In this document: one piece after another, positions 5,101-31,600 of the stretch
Layout: each line of letters starts with the position of its first letter
Position numbering within the stretch: position 1 is the stretch's first letter
IMG/VR virus record: IMGVR_UViG_3300034106_003074
Coordinates: 1 to 53,989 of that record
From: a virus
Length of the DNA stretch: 53,989 nt
Strand: one strand, 5' to 3'
Position numbers and translations under genes: made by a program
Notes under the pieces: model-generated
Told to the model about the DNA's origin: nothing
Databases searched by the model: none
Seen by the model: the letters and a program-made list of their open reading frames with translations, nothing else

Positions 5101-7652
5101 TCGTTATATATTTGTTTATTTATTCTTCCATACTCTCTCATCAGAATTCCAGCTACGGCATGTGCTTGGTTTTCTATAGGAGAACCATCTGCCCCATCTT
5201 TTTCTGCATTTCTAACTAATCCCAACTCATCTTGCTTTCTATGAACCATTTCATGTGCAAGTGTACGAAGTATATCCGCTGTCAATCTACCCTCTGTTGC
5301 TACATATATTGATTTATCATCTGGATTATACCCACCCAAAGATGTTTTTACTTCAGCAAATTCTCTACCACCAACTAATGTTACATTTGGAGATTCTTTT
5401 AACTTCAATCTTTTAGTTGCAAACTCTACAAAGTTCTGAATAGATTGATGTTTTGATTCAGATAAATCCTCTTTCATCAAATCCGAAGCGTTAGCCATCG
5501 ATTGGTTTTTAGTTCCTTCTTTTTTATATCGAGCAATCGTTTGTATCAATTGTTCATCGGATAGTTTATAGTTTTGCATTATTTCTAATGTTTTTTCTAT
5601 AAACTTTGGCACAAACTTTTTCGTATCAAATTCTTCTTCACCCTCTTTATTTTCAAATATTTTAGCTACCCCTAATGCAATACCTCCTAATGAAGCTTGT
5701 GCTTGATTAGCTCCCAATGATTCAAACGCAGAGTGTTTTATTATATCTTTAACTATATACGCCCCCAAATTCCCTCCTCCAAATTTGGTTGCTATTCCTG
5801 CACCAGCTCCTTGTATAACACCACTAATACCCGCTCCTTTAGATGCGGCCGCAATACCTCCTATCAATCCTCCGGTAACTGCGATTGAACCCATAATTAT
5901 TGCGGTAGTTTTTACTAAACCTCCAACGGCCTTTTTTTGTCTTTTACTTTCTTTCCAAGACTTTTCCGCTAATTCTCTTTGTTCCGGTGTTAAATCTTCT
6001 CTAAATACGGGTTCTTTTGTTGTTTTTGGCTTTCCTAACCAATTTTTTTCTTGTACCTTATTTCCATCCGCATCCACTACATCATGACCATGTTTATCTT
6101 TTTTATAAACAGGAACTTCTTTCATTTTAGGTTTGCGATTTCCAAAAGCATTTAACTTACTTGTAGTTGAATCAGGTTCTGTAAAATCATCCCAATGTTT
6201 AGTTTTACCCTCTGAATCCTTAACACCTCCCCATCGTCCAGTGGTTGCCAATGATTTTATAGCACTACCTGTTCCCACCAGCATTTCTTTGTTATGCTGA
6301 TATGTATGCATAATGCCATGCCCAATCTTTGATGCTGCTTTTTTTAGTACACTCATAGCCCCTTTTCTTTCTTCCGATTGTGGGCTATTTACTTTATCAA
6401 TTGATTCGTTATCTTCTTTTGATAATCCTTTTCTAGCATTATTTAAATTTTCTGTTGTTTTCGCGTCTTTCTTTTCTTTATCAGATTTTTCGGCAGACGA
6501 TTTTAACTCACCTCCACTTAATTTTTGAGATGGTGGTGGCGGTGGTGGTGGCGGTGGTGGTTTTGGTACGCCCTGTTTTGGTTTCGTTGCATCCACCTTA
6601 CCTTGTGCAGTTGCCCCCTTATTTACAGGTTGCCCTGGTTGTGGCGGTGGAGGTGGTGGAGGTGGAGGTGGTTTTGGTATTCCACCACTTTGTTTTTTCT
6701 TAACTGCATCAGCTTCGGCAGGAGTTAGGGTTCTAATTTTACCATCGTCAGATTTGTGACTCGCAGGTCCTTTAGCATCTTTACCATAGTATCCACCACC
6801 CAAATGTTTTAATCCCATTTTTTCGGCTTCACTTTCTTCGTTAAAATATGTTCTGGTAAATTCTTCGAACATTTCTTCCATTGCAACTCTACCAAGTATT
6901 TCTGCAATTGGGTTATATAACTCATTCGTTGGATGTTCGGTTTCATGCCGTGTAGGATGTGGTTCGGGTCTCATTTCATACGATGGCTTTGTATTATTGC
7001 TCTCATCCGTTGAACCCGTTGGTGCTCCATTAATGTATCCTCCTGGAAGATTTAATCCAGTTCCTATACCACCTGGAAAACCATTTTCATTTAATTTACC
7101 TGTTATCATACCGAATACCTCTTTATCAAATTTTGGATATGCTTTTAAAAATCCCTTTTTCTTTTCATCATCACTCCCTTTACCCAACCAATTACGAACA
7201 TCTGTTCCACTAATTGGATTTGGTTCAGCAGGAACGGCGTATACATATCCAATTTCCTCGTATCCGTATCCAGCTTTTTCTTTATATGGTTTAAAATATT
7301 TACCTGCTAATCTATCTGCATCCTTTTCTCCAACTGCCGCAACATACGCAGTAGTTTTACCATCAAATTGAGATAATATTTCTTTTGGAGCATACGGATT
7401 ACGAACTTGAACTATCTTATTCGATGGTATTCCAAACATTGTAGTAATTATTTTTACCTTCTCATTAAAATTAAAAGGAGATTTTGGTCCTGATGTATCA
7501 TTGGAGGTTCCAATATATACATTTGATTTTCCAAATTTTTGAGCAAGTTTTAAATAAGAAACATAATGCCCCTTATGGAATGGTTGGAAACGGCCGGAGT
7601 ATACTACTACGGTTTTTTTTACTACTGGTTTATCTTTTTCGTTTAAATTCAT
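2145..7652 (-). CDS. Giant multidomain protein: NMNAT-like, poly-Pro, HExxH peptidase and ligase-like domains
   Basis: An 1835-aa protein, probably a virion-packaged polyprotein. Residues 14-180 are a nucleotidylyltransferase of the NMNAT/NadR type, with GRFQPFHKGH (20-29, HxGH motif) and ISGTDVR (147-153, ISSTxxR-like). Two runs of ten prolines lie at 328-337 and 365-374. A Gly/Ala-rich hydrophobic stretch (about 575-625) could insert in a membrane. Residues about 770-850 form a zinc-peptidase-like domain, with HEMVH at 800-804 and a downstream ENQAHA at 827-832. The C-terminus (about 1441-1835) is a covalent nucleotidyltransferase of the RNA/DNA ligase type: KTDG 1479-1482 (motif I), a NLEVIWP segment at 1561-1567, EGIVF 1806-1810 (motif IV) and KLTG 1818-1821 (motif V). 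Boundaries between these parts carry LNE, LSE, LQE or LTE, resembling T4 gp21 prohead-protease sites. Domain calls are good; the polyprotein role is inferred. Confidence 0.8.
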   Translation of the reverse strand: MNLNEKDKPVVKKTVVVYSGRFQPFHKGHYVSYLKLAQKFGKSNVYIGTSNDTSGPKSPFNFNEKVKIITTMFGIPSNKIVQVRNPYAPKEILSQFDGKTTAYVAAVGEKDADRLAGKYFKPYKEKAGYGYEEIGYVYAVPAEPNPISGTDVRNWLGKGSDDEKKKGFLKAYPKFDKEVFGMITGKLNENGFPGGIGTGLNLPGGYINGAPTGSTDESNNTKPSYEMRPEPHPTRHETEHPTNELYNPIAEILGRVAMEEMFEEFTRTYFNEESEAEKMGLKHLGGGYYGKDAKGPASHKSDDGKIRTLTPAEADAVKKKQSGGIPKPPPPPPPPPPQPGQPVNKGATAQGKVDATKPKQGVPKPPPPPPPPPPSQKLSGGELKSSAEKSDKEKKDAKTTENLNNARKGLSKEDNESIDKVNSPQSEERKGAMSVLKKAASKIGHGIMHTYQHNKEMLVGTGSAIKSLATTGRWGGVKDSEGKTKHWDDFTEPDSTTSKLNAFGNRKPKMKEVPVYKKDKHGHDVVDADGNKVQEKNWLGKPKTTKEPVFREDLTPEQRELAEKSWKESKRQKKAVGGLVKTTAIIMGSIAVTGGLIGGIAAASKGAGISGVIQGAGAGIATKFGGGNLGAYIVKDIIKHSAFESLGANQAQASLGGIALGVAKIFENKEGEEEFDTKKFVPKFIEKTLEIMQNYKLSDEQLIQTIARYKKEGTKNQSMANASDLMKEDLSESKHQSIQNFVEFATKRLKLKESPNVTLVGGREFAEVKTSLGGYNPDDKSIYVATEGRLTADILRTLAHEMVHRKQDELGLVRNAEKDGADGSPIENQAHAVAGILMREYGRINKQIYNEVSNVQTANTADVPDGAFIKKGKKRALDTDKGEAWYKNGGYTQTEFPKADAIFGDDEAEERTIKYTIKNLPNVEYVETDFVKEDINLDVDKGDEVLMGKFKNKKVTVKDIGTDDHGMPTINGKKATTFRIPRGESIGAATHSKHAKSGAQKDFLHHHRTGNYTPDLGYPAELDTVDFDDTTKQVGHQIDKKDTEDRGYEPAKSLKEVGSNDWHFKAIMKIWDNAGSFARKKIGAIVCNDPKADRNDVVKQLQNYGYKEVTYVTDKLGLAEKTNLQEAQAVSGGKVHKFITGKNLGFKGKKYSEIEFETLGVDNKNGTIRLKILAPTEIFGNEMSLDFRSVRRGPFFKTDTGKLNELKLKDLVGNQYKYVIGSGEEKYLGNNDKKYVLEMIAKSLENELYDSDFALNYLDGSQRKEYYSFFKNEILKPMLTKIDFTLNTFFTLDKDKVKWKLSSNDTRKMVDEIFRKNSKVPYDIKKEYYEYRLEYAGVKLNEAEMNPVKKVVNAILKKHGVNAMKTTSTSVRGFHNIVNNGYSYDGNNFLRFYKVSPDVVEKVADEIQKAGVRVYSVNKSGTIKGDFSKTGLVNESLLTEGGAYGHMSHPFDDMDLTFGDLKNIITGALTGELELTREKTDGQALAISWKNGRLIAARNKGHLANAGANAMGIEDVASKFGGRGGLTDAYNFAMKDLSAAVQSLSEPQRKKIFNEGQCFMNLEVIWPTSVNVIPYGQALLVFHNTTCYDEKGSAVGADQSAATKLAGMIKQVNADVQSKYTIQGPPVTQLPKNEDLSAKQNKYLSKLQKLQSEFGLSNNDGVSEYHQAWWENFVNKSKVKLQKLEKEALVRRWAFGDKSFRLNTIADKEAQEWAIENDKVNVAKQQKENVRQFEEIFLGVGADVLSFMSSVLTANPNSAIADMKSRLESTAEKVRGSGDVSKIAKLKMELSRLASIGGKDKIVPNEGIVFVYKGNTYKLTGTFAPLNQILGIFYE
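6531..6560 (-). repeat. Poly-proline tract 2 in the giant protein
   Basis: Ten consecutive proline codons (residues 365-374), with purity broken only at third codon positions. The tract is preceded by the same PKPP lead as tract 1, suggesting duplication of a ~37-residue linker. It probably forms a rigid polyproline-II rod between domains. Confidence 0.9.
6642..6671 (-). repeat. Poly-proline tract 1 in the giant protein
   Basis: Ten consecutive proline codons (residues 328-337) in the context GIPK-P10-Q. It is paired with the second tract 37 residues further on. Confidence 0.9.
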
Positions 7653-14679: not shown

Positions 14680-16083
14680 TTATTTTGTTGTGTAATCTAT
14701 TTTTATTTTTTCAAATATCTCATCAAAACACTCATAGTTTTCAAATGAGTATATATGCTTTTGGTTATATAATAATATATCAATTATTGAATAATACCAA
14801 TTATGTAATTCCTCAATTGGTATATTTTTTAATTTAAGTAATTCTTTTTCTAAAAGTAATATTCTTTTTTTAGGGTCTATTTCTGAATCGTAACTCTCAT
14901 CTATAAATGGTTCAAATGTTTTAAAGCCCAGCCTCTTTAATTCTGCTAATGTTAGATAATCACCAAACACCAAAAATGGTTGTAGATTTGAAATTGGTTT
15001 AAATATTTTTTCTGAAAGGAAAACATTTGGTCCAAAAAATGTTTCAGTTACTAAATGAAAATATGAATCCGCATACCATTCTTTTTTATTATTTCTAACT
15101 CCAAATGCCTGTTTCTTATCAGATGGAACTTCTTTTGTATCATCTTCATACGGTAATAATGATTCTAATTGTGTTGTATATTTTTCAATATTTTCAAAGG
15201 TGTCATCATATACATTTGTTACGATACTTTTTAATTTATCTTTTTCTAATTGTTGTATAAATGTAAATAACCCATCTTTTAACAAATCATATTTTAATGC
15301 AAAATACCCCATCATAGTTCTTTGTGGTTTTTGCATTGTTCTATTTGGGGATAAAAATTTATGTTTTCTAATTTTAGTAGAATCCAAATCTTTTTCTTCA
15401 AATAATTCACACAAATACCCCAAATTACCAATCATTGGAAATGAATTTATTTCATCTGCGTATCCTCTTATAAATAAGTGTCCATTGTATATTTTTATTT
15501 TACTATCAGAATACATTTGATAATATTCAGAAAATTTACTTCCTCCTAAAATTATAATATTGGAACTATCAACTCCTAACTCATTTAATTGAAGTTCAAA
15601 TTTTCGTATATTATTTGAATCATATAACGGGTCGTGTATCATATTTACCAATATCTTCACTTTACCCAATTTAATTAAATCAAATAATTCAGGTTTTATA
15701 ATATCTTTTAAAAACCAACTATATTTTGTATCATTTAGTAAAAAATTGTTTTCACAATGTAGTGCAGAAAGTGTATCTTTTATTTCCAATGGATACACAT
15801 ATACAAAATCATCATCTTTAATTTGATTAAATGATACTATATTTTTAGGAAAATTTCTAGAAAAATAATTAAACAATTCCGAATGGTCAAATTTAATACT
15901 CTTTTCTTCCGATTGATATTGGAGCACCTGATACCAATCTAGTTTTAAATTATTTTTTAAAATATGTTGAATAAATTCCATAATAACAGGATGCATCCCA
16001 TTACCAAATGGTTTTAATTGTCCTTGTTCAATATACCAATCGGTATATATTATTTTAAAATTTGAACCATGTATTGCATTCAT
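14680..16083 (-). CDS. Glycosyltransferase-like protein, TEK-type paralog 2
   Basis: A 467-aa protein from the ATG at 16083, which leaves a one-base gap after the upstream stop. An ATG at 16110 is possible but would overlap the upstream gene by 26 nt. The C-terminus has the family signature VTETFFGPNVFLSEKIFKPISNLQPFLVFG followed by FKTFEPFIDESYD (listed here in two parts), very close to paralog 1. Residues about 140-160 (VKILVNMIHDP) could be a Rossmann-like strand of an N-terminal GT-B domain. A cytosolic sugar transferase using a nucleotide sugar is likely; donor and acceptor unknown. A LLLEKELLKLK helix follows the signature. Confidence 0.68.
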   Translation of the reverse strand: MNAIHGSNFKIIYTDWYIEQGQLKPFGNGMHPVIMEFIQHILKNNLKLDWYQVLQYQSEEKSIKFDHSELFNYFSRNFPKNIVSFNQIKDDDFVYVYPLEIKDTLSALHCENNFLLNDTKYSWFLKDIIKPELFDLIKLGKVKILVNMIHDPLYDSNNIRKFELQLNELGVDSSNIIILGGSKFSEYYQMYSDSKIKIYNGHLFIRGYADEINSFPMIGNLGYLCELFEEKDLDSTKIRKHKFLSPNRTMQKPQRTMMGYFALKYDLLKDGLFTFIQQLEKDKLKSIVTNVYDDTFENIEKYTTQLESLLPYEDDTKEVPSDKKQAFGVRNNKKEWYADSYFHLVTETFFGPNVFLSEKIFKPISNLQPFLVFGDYLTLAELKRLGFKTFEPFIDESYDSEIDPKKRILLLEKELLKLKNIPIEELHNWYYSIIDILLYNQKHIYSFENYECFDEIFEKIKIDYTTK

Positions 16084-16084
16084 A

Positions 16085-17044
16085 TTAATATCTGTATATT
16101 TTTTTAACACTATTCCCTACATAATTGTTATCGTGAAAGAAACTTTCAAATAACAATTCATTTTTTATATAATCTTTAGTACACATTAAATTAAAAATAT
16201 TATCTGAACTTTCTGGTGATATATTGTAATTTATATCGTTATTTATCATATCATTTACAAAATTTTTAATTCCATCTACTATTTTTATTTTATCACTAAA
16301 ATATTTCTGATTGTGTGTATCTGCTTCGTTTACAAACTCATCATTAACAATATCGATATATGTTCCAACTTTATCTGTAAATACTGATTCAAAAAATATA
16401 ATATTGTTTTTAAAATTACATTTTTCAAAATCATAAAAACCTTTTGTATTTTTCAAATCTATATTTCCTTTATAAGTCATATATCTACCTTTTAAATCTA
16501 AATCAAATGTTTTTTGTAAATAGTATTGAGTAGTTCCCTGATACCCACTATCAATCATATATACATTTTTACATTCTCCAATCGTATTATTAATATATTT
16601 TTTATATGAATCTCTTAATAGTTTGGCTTTGCCTAATATATCCGGAATACATAAATTTAAATTTGGTAATCTATTTAAAGTATCAATTTGAATATTAGTT
16701 TCTGTAACATAATTTAATCCAAATCTATCTTTAATCAATTCAGATAAAGTGCCTTGATATCTATGTAAATTAAATGATTCGTAGATATCATCTTCAGATA
16801 CAAATGAAGATAGTGATGATAATTTTCTTGATGTTTTAAAATAAATTGAATTTGGTAAATTATATTTTATTTTAAAATCTTGATATAATTGATTAAGAAA
16901 ATATCCTTCTCGTGAGTTAAATAAAATCAAATCACCATCTTTTATTTCATCTTTCAACCAATTAAAATAGTTAAATAATAATGGTCCAAAAAAGATGTAA
17001 CCAAGTTCTTCTAATGATTCTGGATTTTTAACAATATGACCCAT
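16085..17044 (-). CDS. COG5610-like protein (glycan-cluster partner of HAD hydrolases)
   Basis: A 319-aa protein resembling the C-terminal region of COG5610 proteins (HAD-type proteins found beside polysaccharide glycosyltransferases). Visible similarities are GYIFFGPLLFNYFNWLKDE followed by LILFNSREGYFLNQLY and a TSRKLSSLSS segment, and later MIDSGYQGTTQYYLQ. In COG5610 this part follows an N-terminal HAD domain. Here the HAD domain is a separate gene immediately upstream (17044-17475), sharing one base with this start. The two may work as a split enzyme. Biochemical role unknown; the assignment rests on remembered family patterns. Confidence 0.62.
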   Translation of the reverse strand: MGHIVKNPESLEELGYIFFGPLLFNYFNWLKDEIKDGDLILFNSREGYFLNQLYQDFKIKYNLPNSIYFKTSRKLSSLSSFVSEDDIYESFNLHRYQGTLSELIKDRFGLNYVTETNIQIDTLNRLPNLNLCIPDILGKAKLLRDSYKKYINNTIGECKNVYMIDSGYQGTTQYYLQKTFDLDLKGRYMTYKGNIDLKNTKGFYDFEKCNFKNNIIFFESVFTDKVGTYIDIVNDEFVNEADTHNQKYFSDKIKIVDGIKNFVNDMINNDINYNISPESSDNIFNLMCTKDYIKNELLFESFFHDNNYVGNSVKKIYRY

Positions 17045-18675: not shown

Positions 18676-19311
18676 TTAAAATACTACCCATTTACCACTT
18701 CCGTAGTGTGGATATTTTGATTTATATTCATAATGAATTACATCGGATGGAATATCTTTCTTTGTATTCCAAGTTGCTTCCGTTGGAGTGTAGGTTGAAA
18801 CCGCATTATCTTCTACTATAAAATATACGGGTAAATCAAAGTTTCTAGCATATTTATGAACTTCATAAAATATACCACTTTCAAAACTCATATCTCCAAC
18901 AAATACCCAAACCTTTTCATCACCACCTTTTTCTTTGATTCCCATCGCTACACCTAACGCAATCGATAAAGTACCTCCAACAATAGCAGATGCATAAAAT
19001 TTCTCATCTATTTTACATAAAGTAATTGATTTACCATTCAATATTTCATTTTTAATCCATTCAGGTGAAATACCATGTAATAGTGCGTGATAGTGAGACC
19101 TCCAAGTTGAAAATACCCAATCATTAGCAGATATTCTTTTAAATATTTCTATGAGTTGTTCTTCATTACCATTTGATAGATGTATAGGTCCTCTGATTTT
19201 ACCGTTTTCCCACTCTTCCACTATATCATTTTCAAAGTCAATTAAATCCTGTGGTGTGAGTGTAGTATCTACCTCATTTAAAGTTTTATATTGTTCTAAA
19301 TTTTGTATCAT
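18676..19311 (-). CDS. TPP enzyme, PP-binding (E1-alpha/transketolase N-terminal) half
   Basis: A 211-aa stand-alone diphosphate-binding half of a TPP enzyme. It shows the E1-alpha entry pattern (GPIHLSNGNEEQL, VFSTWRSHYHALLHG), the GGTLSIALGVAMG segment, and the TPP/Mg motif starting VFVGD (GD at 139-140) and ending VEDN (D168, N169), the expected ~30-residue spacing. It is shorter than usual E1-alpha (about 320-360 aa), lacking the C-terminal part. It probably pairs with the pyrimidine half at 9261-9803. It follows the RmlC-type epimerase with a one-base overlap, placing it in nucleotide-sugar metabolism rather than central carbon flow (inference). Confidence 0.87.
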   Translation of the reverse strand: MIQNLEQYKTLNEVDTTLTPQDLIDFENDIVEEWENGKIRGPIHLSNGNEEQLIEIFKRISANDWVFSTWRSHYHALLHGISPEWIKNEILNGKSITLCKIDEKFYASAIVGGTLSIALGVAMGIKEKGGDEKVWVFVGDMSFESGIFYEVHKYARNFDLPVYFIVEDNAVSTYTPTEATWNTKKDIPSDVIHYEYKSKYPHYGSGKWVVF

Positions 19312-20818: not shown

Positions 20819-21583
20819 TTAGAAATAAATGTTCTTTTCTATATAAAATTGAGGATAATTTCCACTAAAACTAACATCCCACACTTTATATCTATTGTAA
20901 TGATTAAAATCACATAAAAATGCAAAATTATTTCTATATGGATAATCGTAATTTAATTTTCGTAAATCATTATAAACTATATGTGAATAATCCGTTGCGT
21001 AGTTATCGATAAAATCTTGAATTTCTTCAATTTTTAATTTTTTGTTTAACACAAATGCCATTTCAAACTCAAAATCTCCAATACATTGATGTTCTTCTGG
21101 ACCAATCATACTCCCACACCCAAACCAATAGAAAGAATGTTCGTATTTCATCTTTTCACCATCTTCAAATGCAATAGTTCCTACTAATTTTCCATTTTTA
21201 TAACATTTGATAGTTCTTTCCAAAAAATGGTCACAAATCATAGCGTACTCATTGAATTCGTTAATTTCTTCTGGTAATAATCCAGTAAAAATTTGTTTTG
21301 CGTACATTTCAGTTCTGCCATCTTCAGTTTTTTTTGAAAACCAATATGTAAATCCAATCGAAATAACTCCCAAATTATCTTTATAAGCAGAAATACCTGA
21401 ATGCATTCCATTTCTGGCAATTGCAAATGATTCTTTATTTGTAATTACGGTATCAGGAAATACTTTAAACTTTACGAATAAAGAAAAATCCTCATCCATA
21501 TCTTTATCAATTCTTCTTGACACCGCATATCTACTTTCCGGCAAAACGAAAAATATACTATCTTTGTTTACTCTTAAACTCAT
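20819..21583 (-). CDS. LamG/concanavalin A-like lectin-fold protein
   Basis: A 254-aa protein taken from the ATG at 21583, which overlaps the upstream stop as ATGA; an ATG at 21601 would overlap by 22 nt. It is largely one jelly-roll domain of the LamG type: FSLFVKFKVFPDT, a FAIARNGMHSG core, ERTIKCYKNGKLVGTI (the typical KNGKLVG hairpin), IGDFEFEMAFVLNKKLKIEEIQDF at the end of the domain. The same fold is nested in the three GT7-like proteins and in the 1658-aa virion protein. It has no signal peptide. It may bind a glycan as a lectin subunit of the synthesis machinery or be a virion component; not distinguishable here. Confidence 0.7.
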   Translation of the reverse strand: MSLRVNKDSIFFVLPESRYAVSRRIDKDMDEDFSLFVKFKVFPDTVITNKESFAIARNGMHSGISAYKDNLGVISIGFTYWFSKKTEDGRTEMYAKQIFTGLLPEEINEFNEYAMICDHFLERTIKCYKNGKLVGTIAFEDGEKMKYEHSFYWFGCGSMIGPEEHQCIGDFEFEMAFVLNKKLKIEEIQDFIDNYATDYSHIVYNDLRKLNYDYPYRNNFAFLCDFNHYNRYKVWDVSFSGNYPQFYIEKNIYF

Positions 21584-22995
21584 ATTTTTATTGTTGAACA
21601 AAAGTGATAAAATTCTTCTAATTCAGGGAATGTTTTACAAAAATCAGTTCCTCTACGTTTATCATGATTTGAGAAATATTGATAAAAACTATATCTATTT
21701 TTCATTTGTTGTGTTGCATCCTGCGGAGAAACCATCCAATCATAAATTCTTTTTACTTTTTGAACCTCAACATCAGAATATCCAATATGTTTTGGGTCAA
21801 ATGATGGTGCCGCATAATATGTAATTAGTTTGGCTTGGTCCGTAATATGTTTAGCGTAATCAAAAGGAAGTACCTGAACCGTCTGATGTAGCGGGTATCG
21901 TAAATATGATGAATCTAAAAACACTGCAGAATTCCAATATCTATCGGTAGATGCGTATACATCTTTTAATGTGTAAATATTATGAATTAATTGTTCATAA
22001 TTAAAAACACTTAACGCATTGTATGTAGACATGAATGTTATAATAGTTCTTGGACATTGTGTAAGAATTTTATTTACGTTATCCCAAAATTTATTGAATT
22101 CTAATCCAGTACGAATGTATTCTGCTTGCTCACCCCACGTATCCGTAGATGTAAATATTACAATTTCTTTTACCCTACCTTCATCCTCTATTTTTTTTAT
22201 TTTTTCAATTAGTTTATCTATTAATTTATCAGGAACTCCTAAATTTGAATTAATTGCTAATTTTAATTCAGTATTTGGGTTTGGATGATTTAGAATGTAA
22301 TCTAATACACCCCAAGTATCCTTTGACATTAACGGTTCACCACCAGTAATTCTAAAAGTGTGTAAATCTTTGTATAAATCAGGCCACCATTTCCAAAATG
22401 CTTCAACATAAGGATTATATTCTTTGTTTGGGATGGGTAATTTATCTTCATTTTTCATCCAATCAACTGAATTGAAATTGTCTAATGTTGGATACGCTCC
22501 AAATTCTTCAATTTCTTCCATCCATTTTGAACTGTATGCAGGACCACAATAGGAACATTTAAAATTACACGCATTTGAGAATGCAACTTCTACATACTTT
22601 GGATTAAAATCTTCTCTCCAATCAGATTGGATGATATCATTTATAAATGGATAAGACCAACTTTCACCTGATTTAAAAACTCTATCCGAAAAACGGTCTG
22701 AATTATCTTCCACTTTCCAACAATAATCACATTCGGTTGGTCTTGCTCCTTGTAACATTTCTTTTCTACGAAGTTTTTTGTATCTCGTATTGTGAAGTGC
22801 AGATGGATTTCGTGCAATTTCCGTTTCTGAAATTTTATGTGTTTGAGGGTGGTGACATGAGTGGTTATGCCCACTTTGTAATTGCAATGTTACCTGCGTC
22901 CATTTAGCGGCACACATACCTGGACCAACTGCATCTAACTCATCTTTAACTCTTAAATATATCGGATTTTCCGAATAACTTTTATCTTCTGCCAT
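21580..22995 (-). CDS. Radical SAM enzyme 3 (twitch/SPASM type)
   Basis: A 471-aa radical SAM protein: CX3CX2C at C143, C147 and C150 (NACNFKCSYC), FRITGGEPLMS as the GGEP motif, IFTSTDTWGEQAEY as a later strand motif. The N-terminus has CHHPQTH and ECDYCW, additional possible iron-sulphur ligands; the C-terminus (RGTDFCKTFPEL) carries a further Cys. This long form with N-terminal cysteines resembles twitch-domain radical SAM proteins seen in marine phages, as far as I recall. Substrate unknown. It lies between the LamG protein and the first GT7-LamG gene, so it may modify a glycoprotein or a peptide carrier. Confidence 0.87.
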   Translation of the reverse strand: MAEDKSYSENPIYLRVKDELDAVGPGMCAAKWTQVTLQLQSGHNHSCHHPQTHKISETEIARNPSALHNTRYKKLRRKEMLQGARPTECDYCWKVEDNSDRFSDRVFKSGESWSYPFINDIIQSDWREDFNPKYVEVAFSNACNFKCSYCGPAYSSKWMEEIEEFGAYPTLDNFNSVDWMKNEDKLPIPNKEYNPYVEAFWKWWPDLYKDLHTFRITGGEPLMSKDTWGVLDYILNHPNPNTELKLAINSNLGVPDKLIDKLIEKIKKIEDEGRVKEIVIFTSTDTWGEQAEYIRTGLEFNKFWDNVNKILTQCPRTIITFMSTYNALSVFNYEQLIHNIYTLKDVYASTDRYWNSAVFLDSSYLRYPLHQTVQVLPFDYAKHITDQAKLITYYAAPSFDPKHIGYSDVEVQKVKRIYDWMVSPQDATQQMKNRYSFYQYFSNHDKRRGTDFCKTFPELEEFYHFCSTIKI

Positions 22996-22999
22996 ATTT

Positions 23000-24466
23000 T
23001 TATTTTAAACAATGAACATTTATTAATTTATGTTTATCGGAAATGATTTTAGTGCTAATATGTTTATACTTCATATTATTTATACCATCTTTTTTATAAT
23101 CAATCTTACCCTGTTGCATTTCTAATACATATCTTCTTTCATTTCTAGCCGTTGTTTCTCCTTTAGCCCATTTATCAACACCTCCAACTTTAATTAACCC
23201 CTCGGTTTCATGTGGTAGACAGAAAAATTTACCATCTCTTCTATGCGGTAATATTACATGAGGTATTTGTATTTCTCTTTCCTCAATACTAACATTATAC
23301 ATTACACCATCATTTACTTCAGCCTGGTCTATTACAAATTTACCATCAGTTATTTCATCAAAATTATAATGTAATATTAAACCATCCGTTGAATATTCTT
23401 TATGTAATTTTGAAACATCTTCACTTGATAATGCTCTATTCCATAATTTAATATCGGCAATTTCACCTTTAAAAAAGGCGTGTGGTTCAAATGGTTCTAC
23501 GGTAGATGTGTGTCCTATGTAAAATGGCTCTGTACCATATCTTTTTAAATTATAGTTGTATTCAACTGGAGATTGTGTGCCAGTTCCGTTTCTAGCATCA
23601 CTTTCATTTCCATTCAAATAAAAATGCATTTTCTTTTCTAAATCATCAACTACCATTGTTACCCAAGTCCACTCACCTTCATAACGCTTGAACCATTGAT
23701 ATATGTGTTCTCTGTGTGAGTTCCACATCATACCAGTATATGCTCTACTGTTATTAAAGGATAATCCCCAATCATAACCTGGTTTTCTGAATATAGGATA
23801 TTCAACAAATTTTCTTTCAGTATCACCAATTAACCAAATAGGAACTTTTTCTATTTGTTGTTCTGCTTTTACTAATACTGAAATCGTATGTGAATTAGAT
23901 ATTGCCATTCTAGTTTGTTCTGTGGATGGTATTTTAATATAAGATTGCTTACCATCAAATAGTGCCACATTTTTTACTTTAGCAAAATCAATAGTTTGTT
24001 TATCCACATATCCTTCCATAACACATCTCCAAAAAAGGTCATCATCTTCCATACCCCAATCCCAATAGTCATTTGAATAACCATTAGTTGCTAAAACTTG
24101 TTCTTTTGTAAAAACAACCGCACCACCAAAGTATTCCTGATATTTTAATTGATAATCAGATTGTGAAATACGAACTGCAATGTGTTGTGGATTTTCTTCT
24201 GGATATGAATAATCACAACTATCATCTTCAGGCACCATATCAATATCATGCCAAACAATATAATCACATCCATCATCAATTGCGTGCTTTGCAGCAATAT
24301 TTTTCATCAATCCTCTGTTGAATAAATATTCATCACATTGATGTGCAATATAAATGGTATGGTCAATTCCTTTCTTTGTTAAGAAATTAGTAACCCAAGG
24401 AACAAATTTATTCATGTGTTCCTCTCTGTTTCTATATGGTACGCAAACACCTAACTTATGTCCCAT
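23000..24466 (-). CDS. GT7-type galactosyltransferase-like protein with nested LamG domain (A)
   Basis: A 488-aa protein. The N-terminal half is a beta-1,4-galactosyltransferase-like (GT7) domain: CVPYRNRE (8-15), FNRGLMKNIAA (49-59), the metal motif HDIDM (73-77), EYFGGAVVF (111-119) and the NGYSNDYWDWGMEDDD block (128-143). Residues about 168-400 are a LamG-like domain (LFDGKQSYIKIP at its start, HFYLNGN in the middle, FKGEIADIKLWNRAL near the end). The GT7 domain then resumes with a possible metal His (H419) and the DGINNMKY box (460-467), the counterpart of the terminal DGLNSLxY motif of animal B4GalT. Catalytic motifs are intact. Donor probably UDP-hexose or UDP-HexNAc; acceptor unknown. 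Confidence 0.85.
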   Translation of the reverse strand: MGHKLGVCVPYRNREEHMNKFVPWVTNFLTKKGIDHTIYIAHQCDEYLFNRGLMKNIAAKHAIDDGCDYIVWHDIDMVPEDDSCDYSYPEENPQHIAVRISQSDYQLKYQEYFGGAVVFTKEQVLATNGYSNDYWDWGMEDDDLFWRCVMEGYVDKQTIDFAKVKNVALFDGKQSYIKIPSTEQTRMAISNSHTISVLVKAEQQIEKVPIWLIGDTERKFVEYPIFRKPGYDWGLSFNNSRAYTGMMWNSHREHIYQWFKRYEGEWTWVTMVVDDLEKKMHFYLNGNESDARNGTGTQSPVEYNYNLKRYGTEPFYIGHTSTVEPFEPHAFFKGEIADIKLWNRALSSEDVSKLHKEYSTDGLILHYNFDEITDGKFVIDQAEVNDGVMYNVSIEEREIQIPHVILPHRRDGKFFCLPHETEGLIKVGGVDKWAKGETTARNERRYVLEMQQGKIDYKKDGINNMKYKHISTKIISDKHKLINVHCLK

Positions 24467-24467
24467 T

Positions 24468-25898
24468 CTACAATAATACCGATAGATGATGATAGTTATT
24501 CATTGTTACATCATTTAATACTTGATATAAACAACTATTTAAACCATCTTTATCTGTGTTATATAATTTAGTTTTAACTTGATTTAAAAATCTTAATTGG
24601 TTTATACGAGTTTCTCTGTGAACCCAGTTTTTCTCATTCCAACTATTTGTTTTATGAGATAATAATTTAAATAAAGATTTTCTTCTATATGGAACTGCCA
24701 TTTCTCTACCCAATGATTCATGTGATTTTATGAAATGGCAATTGTGTATTTCTCCGTTATTATTATTAAATGATAAATCTAATAAAGTATCTTCTTTATA
24801 GAATTTAAAATCATAATATAATTGTAAATGTTGTGCGGATTTATAACCTCTAAAATTTTCTAATAAAGAATTTTCTAAAACATTGTCAGATAATATTTCA
24901 ATTTCTTTATCTTTTAATTTACAATCATATATTGCAAATTCGGAAATCATTCCATAAAAAAAGTTTTGATTAGAATCTCTTTCTGGTGAACCAACTCCTA
25001 AATAAAAATATTCTTCATTTGAATAATCTTTAGGTGCATGTTTTACTTTTTCAGTATTAACTAACGTACCATCTTTATAAAAAGAAATTTGGTTTTTTTC
25101 ATAATCAAAAGTTAAACAGATTTGAGTAAAATGATTAGTTAATATTTCTGAATTAATAGAAGTGCAGTTATCAGTATTATCCCAAAAATCTATTTTATAT
25201 CTTCTAAATGAATTATAACTTATATTTGTATCATAACCAGGTATAGAAAATACAGTATACTCATCATAATCATTATTTGGGTTAGATGTTATTTCATCTG
25301 GCTTAAATGTTATTAATATTGTAGTATCCTTTTCAAAATCTAATAATTCTTTTTTTGGTATTTTTATATAAGAATCGTTTCCACTAAATGATAATCCGTA
25401 TAATTTTTTGGTTTCATTTTTACCAATTATTTTAGAATCTAATGGAATTTTTTTCTGATTTACTCTAAATAAAAGGTCGTCATCTTCAAATCCCCATCCC
25501 CAATATAAATTGGAATACCCGTTTATTCGTTCAAATGTATCGGAACTAAACATAGTTACACCACCAAAATAGTCATCAAATGATAAGTTTTTAGATTTAT
25601 CATATTCTAATTCAAAATTAGTTGCAAGATGCATAGGTAATTCAGAATAAGAATAATCAACCTCAATTGGTAACATATCCACATCATGAAATACAACATA
25701 ACCACATCCTAATTCTTTTGCTTTAATATATCCAATATTTAATAACTTTCCTCTATTAAACGGTTTATCATCAGTTTGTTCAACTACAATAATTTCGTGT
25801 TTAATTTTTTTGGATTTTAAATATGAAGATGTTATTTCACCGAATCGGGTGAGATGTGATTCTCTATCTCTATATGGTACAATTATTCCTAATTTCAT
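24468..25898 (-). CDS. GT7-type galactosyltransferase-like protein with nested LamG domain (B)
   Basis: A 476-aa paralog of 23000-24466 and 26253-27710. Catalytic motifs: IVPYRDRE (6-13), FNRGKLLNIG (47-56), HDVDM (71-75), YFGGVTMF (110-117), NGYSNLYWGWGFEDDD (126-141). The LamG domain runs from about 168 to 395 (SFSGNDSYIKIP, ISFYKDGTLVN, FYGMISEFAIYD). The GT7 tail includes LLSHK (metal-His candidate) and DGLNSCLY (451-458). The WGWGxEDDD block is the closest of the three to the animal B4GalT consensus. It is likely an active cytosolic retaining/inverting GT-A fold enzyme; GT7 members known to me are inverting. Confidence 0.86.
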   Translation of the reverse strand: MKLGIIVPYRDRESHLTRFGEITSSYLKSKKIKHEIIVVEQTDDKPFNRGKLLNIGYIKAKELGCGYVVFHDVDMLPIEVDYSYSELPMHLATNFELEYDKSKNLSFDDYFGGVTMFSSDTFERINGYSNLYWGWGFEDDDLLFRVNQKKIPLDSKIIGKNETKKLYGLSFSGNDSYIKIPKKELLDFEKDTTILITFKPDEITSNPNNDYDEYTVFSIPGYDTNISYNSFRRYKIDFWDNTDNCTSINSEILTNHFTQICLTFDYEKNQISFYKDGTLVNTEKVKHAPKDYSNEEYFYLGVGSPERDSNQNFFYGMISEFAIYDCKLKDKEIEILSDNVLENSLLENFRGYKSAQHLQLYYDFKFYKEDTLLDLSFNNNNGEIHNCHFIKSHESLGREMAVPYRRKSLFKLLSHKTNSWNEKNWVHRETRINQLRFLNQVKTKLYNTDKDGLNSCLYQVLNDVTMNNYHHLSVLL

Positions 25899-25903
25899 TT
25901 AGA

Positions 25904-26245
25904 TTATACTTTTTCGATATCTTTTTTAGGTCTTGCTCTACGAGGTGGTGGTAATTCTGCCCCTTCTTCGGTTTGGGCAGGTTCTGTTGGAACATTTCCA
26001 GCAAAAGGTTTTTCTGAATTTGATGATGCACCATTTTCTTTTGCAATATTATAGAATTCATACAGATAATACGCAACTCTATCACTCCACTCTGATTTGT
26101 TAATTTCTTCAAACCAAATAGTAAGTGCATCTAATGAGTTTGCAATTTTTTCTAATGCTTTTACTTTTCTAGTTTCTAACACAACTGATTCTAAATTTTC
26201 GTTTGTAGAAGGTGTTGTATCAGACTGTAACTTAATTTTTGCCAT
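25904..26245 (-). CDS. Hypothetical acidic protein, 113 aa
   Basis: A 113-aa protein of unrecognised family. Residues about 20-75 look helical (VVLETRKVKALEKIANSLD, then WSDRVAYYLYEFYNIAK); the C-terminal third is Pro/Glu-rich, low complexity and ends in a basic patch (PPPRRARPKKDIEKV). The frame lies between two GT7-LamG genes and is preceded by an A-rich, Shine-Dalgarno-free region. A longer overlapping minus-strand frame at 25870-26130 was judged spurious. A regulatory or scaffold partner of the flanking glycosyltransferases is possible, but nothing shows it. Confidence 0.65.
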   Translation of the reverse strand: MAKIKLQSDTTPSTNENLESVVLETRKVKALEKIANSLDALTIWFEEINKSEWSDRVAYYLYEFYNIAKENGASSNSEKPFAGNVPTEPAQTEEGAELPPPRRARPKKDIEKV

Positions 26246-26252
26246 TTTATTT

Positions 26253-27710
26253 TTATATTTTAATTTGATGCTTATAAACTCCTGTTTTAATTTCTTCGGT
26301 TGATATTAAATCGTATGATAATGTATTCAAACCAAATTTATCAGTATCTAATATATCAGTTGCAATTTCATAAAAGAAAATATTTTCATTTTCTTCAAAT
26401 ATTTCATTTTTTTCTGTCCAATTATAGTTCTCTAATTTAGTAAATTTTTTTGAATTTTCCAAGATTTGAAACCGTCCATTTGATTGTTCTGGCATATCAA
26501 ATTCATAAGATAAATTCAATTCTTCGGAATATGTTTCCTGATGTATTCCAGTTGATACTATTCTTGGATTTGAAAATGTTTTAGAATCATCTACATAAAA
26601 ATCTCCAAATTTTTTATCAAATGGTACATTTATAACCGCTTCAAAATTTGTAGTTATTGTATTGTTTGTTGTTTTGTATCCGTCTGTATATAATTTTATT
26701 ATTTCAGAATCTGCTAACGCGTAATCAAATAATAATAAGTTGGATATTTTGCCACTAAATGAATTTTTAAATGCTAAACTACCAATCCATAAATCTTTTC
26801 CTTTAAAATCCATTAAATGTTTTGGTAATTTATCTAATGTTTGCACAATTTTACCATCAACATATAAACTGGCTTTTTTCTTATCCATATCAACCTTTAA
26901 TGATAGGTTTATCCATTGATTGGCATGAGATTTATGTGGATACCACATTTGATGTAAATTATTATCATCACTCCACAATTGAACTACAATTGCTTCATTT
27001 TTCATAATAAAAATTCCCATATCATATCCTTGTTTTCCAATAATACACCCATTATTTGATTGGTTGTTATTGATAAAAACATTCATTGATATTGTAAATG
27101 AATCTTCAAAAATATAATCGGTTGTTTTATTTGCTCTTACAAATACACAATTATTTTCATTTGATTCAAACGGATATATTGTTTTTTTAATGTATTTATT
27201 TACCTCTTTTACATCTGTTAAAACATGCGGTTTATATATATTTTTAGTAAAAAATCTTTTTGCAGATAATAATTTGTGTTTTTTTAATCTATACAAAAAA
27301 TCTATCCAATGAAAAGAACCTCCCCAATAATCATTACTAAATCCGTTTGCTTCGAAGAAATTTTCTTTTGTAATTTTAAAAGCACCACCTACCCAATGTG
27401 GATATGGTTTTAAATTTGGACAAAGGTGAGTTGGATAGTATTCAAAATCGTAATTGCACGATTCCTGTTTAGGTAAAATATCTATATCATGGAATACATA
27501 ATAATCTGAACGATTTTGTGTTATGGATGCACCAATATTGCATAACTTTCCATAATTGAAATAAACATCTGCATCAATTTGTTCTATGAAATGAATTTCG
27601 TAATCCGTTTTATCTTTTAAAAAGTATTCCATGTGACCCACAAAGGTATATAGGTCTTGTAAACGATTGGAGTACGGTACTATAATTGATAACTTTTTAT
27701 TGTTCATCAT
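26253..27710 (-). CDS. GT7-like protein with nested LamG domain and degenerate active site (C)
   Basis: A 485-aa third paralog. The start of the GT7 domain is conserved: IIVPYSNR, FNYGKLCNIG, HDIDI (74-78), WVGGAFKI, and NGFSNDYW (122-129). The acid block then becomes WGGSFHWID instead of WGWGxEDDD, so the EDD residues that bind acceptor and act as base are missing. The metal-His position after the LamG domain appears to be Glu/Asn (RFQILENSKKF). The LamG domain (about 165-385; ASLYVDGKIVQ, FSGKISNLLLFDYAL) and the GLNTLSY tail box are kept. It may be inactive (lectin-like or structural) or have a changed reaction. An alternative ATG lies one codon further in. Confidence 0.8.
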   Translation of the reverse strand: MMNNKKLSIIVPYSNRLQDLYTFVGHMEYFLKDKTDYEIHFIEQIDADVYFNYGKLCNIGASITQNRSDYYVFHDIDILPKQESCNYDFEYYPTHLCPNLKPYPHWVGGAFKITKENFFEANGFSNDYWGGSFHWIDFLYRLKKHKLLSAKRFFTKNIYKPHVLTDVKEVNKYIKKTIYPFESNENNCVFVRANKTTDYIFEDSFTISMNVFINNNQSNNGCIIGKQGYDMGIFIMKNEAIVVQLWSDDNNLHQMWYPHKSHANQWINLSLKVDMDKKKASLYVDGKIVQTLDKLPKHLMDFKGKDLWIGSLAFKNSFSGKISNLLLFDYALADSEIIKLYTDGYKTTNNTITTNFEAVINVPFDKKFGDFYVDDSKTFSNPRIVSTGIHQETYSEELNLSYEFDMPEQSNGRFQILENSKKFTKLENYNWTEKNEIFEENENIFFYEIATDILDTDKFGLNTLSYDLISTEEIKTGVYKHQIKI

Positions 27711-27724
27711 TTTAATAACCTATT

Positions 27725-28576
27725 TTATATAGATATAATTTTTTTAAATAATTTATCCCAATTTTTATAATTTTCATAGTTCGCAGTTGGGCAATATTCA
27801 AACATATATGTTACATCATCATCAATTGGCATTTGAAAGTTTTCTCTCCGAAGTGCTTGGTACATTTTTAAATATTCATCTGAAAATGCATAATCTTTTC
27901 TAATATCTGCTACTGATTTAATTCTATCTATACAAGTAGAATCCCATTTAAAATGATGAACCTGAACATTATACTCATCAACGGGTGCAATTAATGGGTG
28001 ATTCCATCCCATCCATTTCCAAGTTGTTTGTCCATCAATTTTAGCATAATGTTGTCCTGATGTTAATTCAATATTTCCTTTTACTATACAAATTTTGTTT
28101 GGACATGCTCCACTCATTGGGTATCTGAAAAATCCAGCATACGGAAATTGCTCAAATATATTATCAGTTTGATTTATTTTACTAAATTCACCATCTTCCC
28201 CAATTCTATCTATAAATCCACCTCTTACTAATTCCCACCCGTTATTATTACAATCCGCTATTATTTCTGATAATGGTTTTGAATATAAATGAAACTCATC
28301 ATCATCCGATATTACCCACCAATCATTAGGATATTTTGATTTTTCTTCGTTGTATAATTTGGTAACTAATTCCCAATTATATTTTTCTCCAATTGCTCTT
28401 CTTACTATTTTCGCATTTGAAAATTGTGAAACAATATCGGATACATCATTGTATGTACTAACACCTTCCCATTCATATACAACCACCCACATCTCATCTA
28501 CTAAATCGGCATAATGCTTTAGCATGTGATATAAAGTGTTTGTTCTACTACCTGTTACTGTAACTAATCTAATCAT
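27725..28576 (-). CDS. Glycosyltransferase, GT-A/GT2-like
   Basis: A 283-aa protein with a GT-A-like N-terminus: MIRLVTVTGSRTNTLYHMLKHY, VDEMWVVVYEW, then WWVISDDDEFHLY with the acidic DDDE metal site at 91-94. Later HYAKIDGQTTWKWMGWNHP and VHHFKWDS could be the acceptor-side His/Asp region. The sequence pattern (WW.I.DDDEF..Y) is typical of GT2-type transferases in polysaccharide loci. Cytosolic; donor and acceptor unknown. Its ATG overlaps the methyltransferase stop as ATGA, so the two are probably co-translated. Confidence 0.78.
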   Translation of the reverse strand: MIRLVTVTGSRTNTLYHMLKHYADLVDEMWVVVYEWEGVSTYNDVSDIVSQFSNAKIVRRAIGEKYNWELVTKLYNEEKSKYPNDWWVISDDDEFHLYSKPLSEIIADCNNNGWELVRGGFIDRIGEDGEFSKINQTDNIFEQFPYAGFFRYPMSGACPNKICIVKGNIELTSGQHYAKIDGQTTWKWMGWNHPLIAPVDEYNVQVHHFKWDSTCIDRIKSVADIRKDYAFSDEYLKMYQALRRENFQMPIDDDVTYMFEYCPTANYENYKNWDKLFKKIISI

Positions 28577-29331
28577 TTTCTTTTAACTAATGTTAATCCA
28601 GTTGATGCTGGTTTATTTTTTTGAATACCAAAATTAAAAAGGTCAAATACTTCCCAATTTGGATTATCCTTTAATTCTTTTGCAAATACAATTGGTCCGT
28701 GCCAATCATCAAAATCACCTCTATCTTTTACTTCGTTTGTAACGATGTAACTATCTGCATAGTTAGGGTCGGTATCGTGGATTGAAATGATTCCATTTGG
28801 AGAAAGTAATTGTGAGTATAACTCAAAATCTTCTTTAACATTTTCATAACTATGCCCTGCATCAATATGCAAATAATCTATCTGAATATCATTGAGAACA
28901 AAATAATTATGAAATGCTTCTTCTGTTGTTTTATTAATAATTCGTGGATGAAATGTTCTTCTAAAAAAAGATTCTTCTCTGAACCAATTTACATTACCCC
29001 CAATACCATTCATCGCATCAACTACATAAGTAACTCCAATATCTCCCCAATTTAAATCAGGATTTCCTTCAAATATTTTCTGATTATATAAATCATATCT
29101 AGCCTGTGTCATTAATCTTGGAATAAATCCACCACCACTTCCCAAACATACACAAGTTTTTGCTCTCATATACTGGATGATGGAATACACAATTAATCCA
29201 TCACCTAAATGTAAATCAGTTGCACCATGAGACCATCTATAAGGAACTGGAGAATCTTCTTGTTCCTGATACTCATTGAATTCGATATTATTTGTTATAG
29301 TATTTTTTATGTATTGTAAATCTTGTAGCAT
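28573..29331 (-). CDS. Class I SAM-dependent methyltransferase-like protein
   Basis: A 252-aa protein with a class I methyltransferase pattern: glycine loop VCLGSGGGFIPRLM (61-74, GSGGG 64-68), acidic strand end VVDAMNG (103-109), and the YLHIDAGHSYENVKEDFELY segment (153-172) with SPNGIISIHDTDP following, typical of the Methyltransf_24/cephalosporin-hydroxylase-like group found in glycan clusters. It may O-methylate a sugar, or hydroxylate if of the CmcI type. It is preceded by a 62-nt gap, longer than most in this module, so it may start a transcription sub-unit. Confidence 0.82.
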   Translation of the reverse strand: MLQDLQYIKNTITNNIEFNEYQEQEDSPVPYRWSHGATDLHLGDGLIVYSIIQYMRAKTCVCLGSGGGFIPRLMTQARYDLYNQKIFEGNPDLNWGDIGVTYVVDAMNGIGGNVNWFREESFFRRTFHPRIINKTTEEAFHNYFVLNDIQIDYLHIDAGHSYENVKEDFELYSQLLSPNGIISIHDTDPNYADSYIVTNEVKDRGDFDDWHGPIVFAKELKDNPNWEVFDLFNFGIQKNKPASTGLTLVKRK

Positions 29332-29393: not shown

Positions 29394-30281
29394 TTATTCA
29401 GTTATTTTAGTATAATATTTTTCAACTTCATCTTTAATTTTTGGCCATAGAAAATTTGTAAAGAAATCGATTGATTGTTCTTTTGATGGATGATTTTTAC
29501 CACCCAACATTGGTTCGTTTTTGTTGACAAAGTATTCTAGCATACCACCACCAAATCCATTTACCCTAACATCATCTGTAAATATAAATTTACTAAAATC
29601 AATTTTTTCTAATAGTTCTGATATTATATTTGCTTCGAACCATGAATCGTCAAATGGTTCTAATTTATCAAACAAACTTTCTGTTTTTAGTATAGAATAA
29701 TTTCCTGCGTCTGAATCTGTTTTTTTTTGAAGAATCTGTAACTTGTTTACTGCAACATCCATTTGAAATAAATTACCTATACAAAACATTTTATATGGTA
29801 TATTTTTTTCTTTAAAATACTGTTGAGTATGATATATACTTTCTAATGTTTGCAATATAGCACCATGTATTGAATAATATTTTTCAAAGAATTCTTTTCC
29901 ATATCCTGATATATCAGTTCCGTTTAACATATAGTTTATTTTACCAATTCTTTCAGGATGCATATTCATTCTTGGAAAGTTTTTTGCTCTATCCTCATCT
30001 ACAAATACAGGATAATCCCATCTATCGATTGTAGACCATTGAACTATTGCATAATCCACTTTCCAATGTGGTTTTAGTGCGTTATTATACTGTAATGAAT
30101 TTAAAAACTTAAATACTTTTCTCCTCATTATGTCATTTCCAGAACCACCACAACCTGCATTATATACATCAAATGGTTCCGCTGATTTTTTATTATCAAA
30201 TAAAGAATATCCTTCCGTTTCAAACCCAATAGGCCAGTTTTCATCTCCAGCAGAAAACGAGCATCCGTTTATTAATATCAT
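29394..30281 (-). CDS. SGNH-hydrolase-like protein 3
   Basis: A 295-aa protein with the GCSFSAGDENWP block near the N-terminus (Ser in GCSF), NAGCGGSGNDIMRRKVF (about 41-57, oxyanion-like Gly/Asn block), VQWSTIDRW, and C-terminal GGKNHPSKEQS. The last block has Asn where the usual DxxH Asp would stand, so the triad may be incomplete or altered. The middle (residues about 105-215) is an insertion relative to 12958-13674. Role unknown; O-acyl esterase or transferase chemistry on a glycan is the family-based guess. Start overlaps the next upstream stop as ATGA. Confidence 0.7.
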   Translation of the reverse strand: MILINGCSFSAGDENWPIGFETEGYSLFDNKKSAEPFDVYNAGCGGSGNDIMRRKVFKFLNSLQYNNALKPHWKVDYAIVQWSTIDRWDYPVFVDEDRAKNFPRMNMHPERIGKINYMLNGTDISGYGKEFFEKYYSIHGAILQTLESIYHTQQYFKEKNIPYKMFCIGNLFQMDVAVNKLQILQKKTDSDAGNYSILKTESLFDKLEPFDDSWFEANIISELLEKIDFSKFIFTDDVRVNGFGGGMLEYFVNKNEPMLGGKNHPSKEQSIDFFTNFLWPKIKDEVEKYYTKITE

Positions 30282-31600
30282 AATAATTTATTTATATTAT
30301 TCATTATATTGCAATAATGTGTTATCAATTTTTGTTTATTTTCTTTTAATATAGGTGTTTTTTGAATAAATGTATTTTTAGCATCGTTTATATTTTTATT
30401 TTTTAAAAAATCTACTATCATATCAATTTGTTCTAATTCATTTTTTGTTTGAATTCCTTGTAAACCAAAATCATCTAAAAACAAATCTATACCAATTCTT
30501 TTATATTCACTATATACTTTATTGGAACCAAATATCAATGGAAGTTTTTCCGATAATATTGGTTTTATAGATTTTTCTGTAAAAAATCCATATTTTAAAT
30601 TAAAAATACAATGTGTTTCACCAACTACTTCAAAATATGATAAATCGTATTCTTTTTCTCTAAAATAATAAAGTAAATGGTCAAACTCAAATGGAGCATT
30701 CAAAGGTGTAATATTTATTTCATTTCTTATAGATTGTAATTTATTAAAATTTTCTTTTGTAAAATATTTTATATGATTATCGGTATGCGTGTTAGTATGG
30801 TCTGTATATATGTATCCTTCTCTAACTGCTTGTAAATATTCTATTAAAAATTTTTCATTTATACAATTTAAACCTGTTTTTAATATATCCGATTCTTTTG
30901 CTTTTAATAAAAACTGAACTCTATGAAATCTTGGTTTTAATGCCTGACTACTATACACATATAGTTTTTCAGTATTATGTGATATATTTAGATTTTTAAA
31001 TATATTATAAAAATTATCATTATATGCTAATTTACCAGTAGTATGATTTGGAAATAAAAAATTTGTAAATTGTCCTTCGGCCATCAAATGAAACATACAA
31101 TAGAATGAATCGTAGTGAAAGTTTTTATCTCCATCAAACAATTCATAATCTGTCATTTTAATATGATTAAATTTAAAATCATATCTAAAATATTGTTCAT
31201 CTTTTTCGTACTCAACTGCTTCTAAAAATGCAAAATTAAATAAAACTTTTGCATTACGTTCAACATACAGCTGTTCCAATTTATTAAATTCAATTGGATT
31301 TTTTTTCATTAATGGTAAATAAAATTCACTCCATATTTTTCTATCAATAACAATTATTAAATTATCAATTGGGTTTGAATACATTAAATCAAAAGTTGTT
31401 ATACCATCAAATGATTTTAATTTATTTAATACATTATATGGGTTTTGTATATAGTGATGTATTTTAATTTTTTCACCAGCATTATCTATAACAATTTCAT
31501 GATGTTTTTCTATTTTTATTGGGGTTACGGAAATCAAATTTGCTTCTGGAAACAAATTCTGTAACTCATTATATGTTGCTAATATATTTAATGACCTCAT
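30278..31600 (-). CDS. Glycosyltransferase-like protein, TEK-type paralog 3
   Basis: A 440-aa divergent member of the four-gene family. The C-terminal signature is GETHCIFNLKYGFFTEKSIKPI followed by EKLPLIFGSNKVYSEYKRIGIDLF (described as two blocks, about residues 325-370). The E-T...F.TEK..KP....LP.IFG arrangement is the clearest GT10/exostosin-like form of the set. The N-terminal domain is unlike the other paralogs. The start at 31600 overlaps the upstream gene by 32 nt, and no internal Met occurs for about 70 residues, so either this overlap is real or a non-ATG start is used. Confidence 0.66.
   Translation of the reverse strand: MRSLNILATYNELQNLFPEANLISVTPIKIEKHHEIVIDNAGEKIKIHHYIQNPYNVLNKLKSFDGITTFDLMYSNPIDNLIIVIDRKIWSEFYLPLMKKNPIEFNKLEQLYVERNAKVLFNFAFLEAVEYEKDEQYFRYDFKFNHIKMTDYELFDGDKNFHYDSFYCMFHLMAEGQFTNFLFPNHTTGKLAYNDNFYNIFKNLNISHNTEKLYVYSSQALKPRFHRVQFLLKAKESDILKTGLNCINEKFLIEYLQAVREGYIYTDHTNTHTDNHIKYFTKENFNKLQSIRNEINITPLNAPFEFDHLLYYFREKEYDLSYFEVVGETHCIFNLKYGFFTEKSIKPILSEKLPLIFGSNKVYSEYKRIGIDLFLDDFGLQGIQTKNELEQIDMIVDFLKNKNINDAKNTFIQKTPILKENKQKLITHYCNIMNNINKLL

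Follow-up and report, generated by a model that had tools for sequence, protein, structure and literature searches.

A LamG domain nested within the GT7 glycosyltransferase domain of three paralogous phage proteins

Three paralogous phage proteins, here called P1, P2 and P3, carry a LamG domain of about 250 residues that almost certainly interrupts their GT7 catalytic domain, rather than being fused end to end with it. The proteins are encoded in a stretch of 53,989 nucleotides (positions 1 to 53,989 of the IMG/VR record IMGVR_UViG_3300034106_003074), which we refer to as the window. Judged from the alignments, the insert falls after the helix with the catalytic xED acid and before the strand with the metal-binding histidine (C-His).

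All three genes lie on the minus strand, P1 at 23000-24466 (488 amino acids), P2 at 24468-25898 (476) and P3 at 26253-27710 (485). P2 and P3 share 29% and 26% identity with P1, respectively. Each protein matches Glyco_transf_7N, the first part of Glyco_transf_7C and Laminin_G_3 above the curated Pfam cut-offs, with P3 barely passing for Glyco_transf_7C (23.3 versus a cut-off of 23). In P1, the N-terminal GT7 part spans residues 1-157 (23996-24466) and contains the DxD motif HDID and the segment WDWGMEDDD with the xED acid (GT7N E = 1.7e-18, GT7C E = 2.7e-18); residues 3-167 also match the crystal constructs of B4GalT1 and B4GalT7 (phmmer, E down to 5.6e-32). Residues 158-407 (23246-23995) comprise the inserted LamG/ConA-like domain with its linkers (Laminin_G_3 E = 8.3e-14, residues 171-352), and residues 408-488 (23003-23245) form the C-terminal GT7 part, or tail, with C-His at H419 and the box DGINNMKY (33 bits with the tail HMM described below, residues 409-484). 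The same map applies to P2, with an N part at residues 1-157 (25428-25898; HDVD, WGWGFEDDD; GT7N E = 1.1e-18, GT7C E = 1.9e-17), an insert with linkers at residues 158-404 (24687-25427; Laminin_G_3 E = 5.6e-16, residues 173-333) and a tail at residues 405-476 (24471-24686; C-His in LLSHKTN, box DGLNSCLYQVL; tail HMM at residues 406-474). In P3, the N part occupies residues 1-157 (27240-27710; GT7N E = 1.3e-13, GT7C E = 4.9e-5), the insert with linkers residues 158-407 (26490-27239; Laminin_G_3 E = 1e-11, residues 202-337) and the tail residues 408-485 (26256-26489; tail HMM at residues 409-485). Between P3 and P2 lies an ORF of 113 amino acids on the same strand (25904-26245), without family match and present in 17 of 80 related loci.

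The evidence for nesting comes from a comparison with GT7 proteins that lack the insert. In uninserted bacterial relatives (L090-L115), the xED helix runs directly into a segment of the form RxGxYxxLpH..., and most sequences end in [DE]GL[NS]xLxY. The phage proteins carry a tail of the RxGxYxxLpH... type too, but placed only after the LamG domain. We built an HMM from the tails of uninserted bacterial GT7 proteins, which matched residues ~405-488 in 56 out of 56 diverse members of the phage family (best score 51 bits; a few P3-type members match weakly) and returned 2 very weak matches, of about 4 bits, in 112 reversed or shuffled controls. The full bacterial GT7 HMM splits into two pieces in each of P1, P2 and P3; in P1 these cover residues 3-153 (model 43-189) and 408-485 (model 192-263). 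When profiles were compared with hhalign, the phage N part aligned with columns 3-160 of the uninserted GT7 profile (E = 7.7e-77) and the phage tails with the C-terminus of uninserted GT7 (98.3%, E = 1.2e-14). On the uninserted alignment, the phage N part stops at template column 165 and the tail starts at column 163, which fixes the insertion point within a few residues. The spacing between xED and tail in the fetched loci is bimodal, with 65 ORFs at 0-40 residues and about 298 at 240-310; one further ORF exceeds 340, and one odd value derives from a weak match. We also removed LamG from P2, for use as a search query only; the resulting alignments with B4GalT7 and B4GalT1 cover almost the entire catalytic domain and include the DGLN box at the C-terminus. 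Finally, B4GalT1 chains ranked 1-12 when a tail-only profile was searched against the PDB, though with E-values of just 0.47-1.3, and this match lends weak support to the GT7 identity of the tail.

These results refine the boundaries given in the preliminary description of this DNA. The three proposed paralogs all have the GT7-LamG-GT7 order by Pfam and the tail HMM, but the 113-residue ORF breaks the strict tandem arrangement. The GT7 N-terminal half is present and extends to ~157, whereas ~145 had been given as its end. The LamG domain is likewise real, and the insert measures ~250 residues including linkers instead of ~220. The GT7 tail resumes at ~408, some 50 residues ahead of the [D/F]G[LI]N box where it had been placed.

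We modeled P1 with AlphaFold2 using 56 family sequences (pLDDT 87.2, pTM 0.83). The pLDDT values are 83-97 for most blocks of the tail and drop to 58-62 in a loop at residues 421-440. Since a Foldseek search of the full model against PDB and BFVD aligned both domains separately and did not bridge the insert, we also modeled L118, an uninserted phage GT7 protein of 218 amino acids (pLDDT 94.3). This model superposes end to end on B4GalT1 (224 columns, TM 0.91 by query, rmsd 2.0), which makes the L118 tail an intrinsic component of the GT7 fold. The tail of L118 consists of a strand (158-161), a helix (170-184) and two strands (201-207 and 212-217), and this order resembles that in the P1 model, where a strand (413-416) and short strands (424-433) precede a helix (437-450) and two final strands (467-476 and 479-486). 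The tail of the LamG-bearing phage proteins is homologous to that of L118 and, by this homology, would complete the GT7 fold. In the same Foldseek analysis, the P1 insert matched pentraxins (TM up to 0.70 by target) and a Bacteroides carbohydrate-binding protein.

Direct-coupling analysis of 240 full-length members (effective number about 134) points in the same direction. Among the top 100 pairs, 20 link the N part with the tail compared to 11.4 expected, while pairs between LamG and tail (9 versus 16.3) and between N part and LamG (20 versus 32.6) are fewer than expected; the hypergeometric P-values of 0.009 and 0.026 ignore the non-independence of the pairs. When the GT columns are spliced together, the strongest cross couplings connect residues 480-486 with 37-54, and 409-413 with 95-99.

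An end-to-end fusion, in which GT7 stops at ~157 and the segment after LamG either belongs to LamG or constitutes a domain of its own, would fit the end of the Pfam GT7C match near residue 150 and the Foldseek alignment of just ~152 columns with B4GalT1. We nevertheless consider it extremely unlikely, because tail profiles match the GT7 C-terminus, uninserted relatives have the homologous tail immediately after the xED helix, C-His sits in the tail, and the couplings favor N-tail over LamG-tail pairs. The possibility that assembly errors or chance brought the domains together is negligible, given that about 300 ORFs, spread over many metagenomes, show the architecture at the matching position, and that two bacterial genomes have it as well. 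The original proposal that the lectin is nested rather than appended therefore holds, on the strength of the profile-profile matches, the uninserted homologs, the structure of the uninserted relative compared with B4GalT1 and the couplings. A tail packing with LamG would speak against that proposal, and the evidence, drawn from homology and couplings, points the other way.

The site of insertion can be related to the known functional elements of B4GalT1. In the human enzyme, the lid comprises residues 338-365, and Asp250, His343 and Met340 are the Mn2+ ligands (PMC6198961). A gapless count back from H419 would place the P1 join (residues 408-409) at about residue 332-333 of B4GalT1, approximately five residues ahead of the lid. 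GT-A enzymes have been described as diversifying via three hypervariable regions, HV1 (beta3-alphaC), HV2 (beta6-beta7) and HV3 (after beta8), in a GT-A survey (PMC7185993). As read from that text, the insert, which follows the xED helix (alphaF) and precedes the C-His strand, would lie outside HV1-HV3.

To describe the history of the insertion, we relied on quick trees, computed without bootstrap. In the tree of GT columns, the inserted proteins form one side of a single branch (SH-aLRT 91), within which P1, P2 and P3 are separate clades, and trees of LamG only and of GT only return the matching three groups. The simplest account would be one insertion followed by two duplications. LamG evolves faster than the GT parts: mean pairwise identity in P1 is 0.73 for the N part, 0.50 for LamG and 0.60 for the tail, and in P2 it is 0.56, 0.30 and 0.35, respectively. 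One P1 copy (L155:5440-6875) is frameshifted between LamG and tail, giving frames of 404 and 103 amino acids, possibly through a sequencing error.

The DxD metal motif is kept in all three proteins of the window. Across P1 sequences, the equivalents of E317, D318 and D320 (numbering of bovine B4GalT1), the DxD motif and C-His are invariant (91 out of 91); in P2, DxD and the xED acid are found in 86 of 86 sequences and C-His in 85. The P3 group is degenerate, with xED varying among its members. In the P3 of the window, HWI replaces xED and Asn replaces C-His, a loss that the preliminary description had not mentioned, and with these replacements this protein is probably a pseudoenzyme. All 12 P3 sequences without the Asp also lack C-His; the Asp was lost in one event on the tree, so this joint loss does not count as independent evidence. 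Other P3 members keep the Asp. Three members of the P3 clade (L156:2239-3942, L135 and L296) look ancestral, with an FNRG motif and an intact acid, and in L156 the stretch from LamG to tail is longer by about 80 residues. One could take the state of P3, without xED and C-His, as a sign that all three paralogs are catalytically dead, lectin-like proteins that keep only the GT shell. This is very unlikely in view of the acid being invariant in the 177 P1 and P2 sequences and C-His being present in 176 of them. As to the donor, P1 has a Tyr (Y112) at the position of B4GalT1 Tyr289, a residue that favors UDP-Gal; UDP-Gal as the donor of P1 is only a guess.

The GT7-LamG genes belong to a phage glycan cassette. 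We counted neighbors in 80 related loci of about 13 kb each, so that distant genes are undercounted. P1 is present in 80 of these loci and P2 in 79. A twitch-domain radical SAM protein (21580-22995, minus strand; NF033640 E = 4.9e-104) lies directly downstream of P1 in the window; it accompanies P1 in 80 out of 80 loci, again directly downstream wherever gene order was inspected. Upstream on the same strand are a conserved ORF without family match (27725-28576, 76 loci) and a methyltransferase (Methyltransf_24; 28573-29331, 73 loci), and a GT4-like protein occurs in 52 loci. Nearby, the window encodes several epimerases, a dTDP-sugar isomerase, a PDH-E1-like TPP enzyme, a cytidylyltransferase, a HAD phosphatase and further radical SAM proteins. 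The TPP enzyme (18676-19311, PDH E1-alpha-like, 211 amino acids, in 43 of the 80 loci) adjoins the isomerase and epimerases, and together they constitute a sugar-modification set that is unusual for a phage. Three ORFs of the cassette (14680-16110, 27725-28576 and 30278-31600) have no Pfam match. After these genes come a tail-fiber-like protein carrying an S74 chaperone and, in addition, primase, SbcCD-like and endonuclease I proteins. The window also encodes a protein of 1,835 amino acids (2145-7652) in which an N-terminal cytidylyltransferase-like domain is the sole recognized part.

Taken as a whole, our explanation is somewhat better than an even bet. P1 and P2 would be metal-dependent inverting GT7 glycosyltransferases, probably of the UDP-galactose type, in which residues 1-157 and ~408-488 together make up the GT-A domain and the LamG/ConA-like domain lies between the xED helix and the C-His strand. 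LamG would serve as a putative acceptor-binding module that keeps a glycan or glycoprotein next to the active site, and the cassette of glycosyltransferases, radical SAM enzymes, methyltransferase and sugar-nucleotide enzymes would make a decorated glycan during infection. P3 would be a degenerate copy, probably left with binding or scaffolding only. We rate it at about even odds that LamG keeps the acceptor close to the active site. The preliminary description had raised a putative tether between the enzyme and the glycan it extends. In P1, twelve LamG positions (E222, Y223, D232, N238, N239, R241, W248, Y256, W258, K260, R261 and N285) are 90-100% conserved while the remainder of the domain varies, and this polar and aromatic patch suggests a specific ligand. 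We did not find a comparable patch in P2, where few LamG columns exceed 85%; the poor conservation of this domain (see the identity above) does not suggest a single shared ligand.

Proteins are the ligands of many LamG domains. With the architecture as described, LamG may instead mediate protein docking or oligomerization, with a virion protein, the paralogs or the radical SAM partner, and not bind a glycan, a possibility to which we give appreciably less credence. It would agree with the adjacency of the paralogs across the loci, with the retention of a degenerate P3, as expected for a scaffold subunit, and with a P2 LamG that lacks the conservation expected of a fixed sugar pocket. B4GalT1 itself dimerizes in a metal- and lid-dependent manner (PMC6198961). 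The conserved P1 patch is, however, typical of a specific ligand site, though a protein interface could equally explain it. More doubtful still is a role for LamG as a sensor, in which ligand binding opens or closes the lid, the enzyme is switched on by a held acceptor or product, and P3 is a regulatory subunit; LamG could move the lid since its attachment point precedes both the lid and the metal-binding His by a few residues.

Relatives of our sequence alignment are encoded in at least 573 viral stretches, a subset of which was checked for the insert, and 172 viral stretches match P1. A search of P1 and P2 against 50,697 records of cultured phages (INPHARED), which may leave out near records, gave no match. 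The insert is also present in seven contigs of metagenome-assembled genomes (MAGs): L084, L085, L086, L087, L088, L089 and L095, the last being too short to classify. Four of them (L084, L085, L088 and L089) carry the phage cassette and are therefore likely phage contigs. L087, a contig of 66 kb, looks cellular because its gene (5941-7431) adjoins a GT2 protein, an ABC exporter and a HlyD-like protein. L086, which is 78% identical to L087, is a 3-kb contig of another genome, counted among the relatives of the genome of L087. Among the relatives of the bacterial genome G001, the full-length gene is found only in G001 and G002. The topology that the preliminary description suggested looking for outside phages thus exists in two related bacterial MAGs. 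L086 groups inside the P1 clade and may therefore derive from phages by transfer.

Animal B4GalT1 and B4GalT7 (CAZy GT7) have in common with the phage proteins the DxD, xED and C-His elements and the C-terminal DGLN..Y box; they differ in having no inserted domain, and pass from the xED helix to the C-His strand and lid in about 25-30 residues. The closest relatives of both phage GT halves are uninserted bacterial and phage GT7 proteins (for example L118, L113 and L102), in which the spacing is 0-40 residues and to which the LamG-bearing proteins add about 250. The insert shares fold and Pfam family with LamG/pentraxin-like ConA-fold domains (Laminin_G_3), and LamG domains are usually free-standing, repeated or terminal, not within the catalytic domain of an enzyme. 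In ppGalNAc transferases (GT27), a GT-A enzyme is joined to a ricin-type lectin that helps acceptor choice, and this lectin is a C-terminal appendage. The phage proteins do not belong to this class, in which the lectin is appended to a complete GT domain, as their LamG lies inside the GT domain. GT7 and GT27 are kin, according to the GT-A survey (PMC7185993). In AaV, the packaged B4GalT and the ConA-like lectins are separate proteins. The open papers that we searched contain nothing relevant on GT7 or LamG in phages and no description of the nested GT7-LamG design, and we found no family model for this architecture. The earlier suggestion that the design may be new is in line with this result.

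The phage proteins indicate that a GT-A enzyme can accept a whole lectin-like domain at an apparent fourth site, flanked by the catalytic acid on one side and the metal-binding His on the other. The insertion apparently happened a single time, and the copies that arose by later duplication have retained it in a widespread group of uncultured phages. The GT7-LamG proteins provide a natural test of an acceptor-binding module that is integrated within a glycosyltransferase instead of being attached to it, and they are a possible scaffold to engineer acceptor choice. The cassette around them marks an unstudied phage glycan system with radical SAM enzymes.
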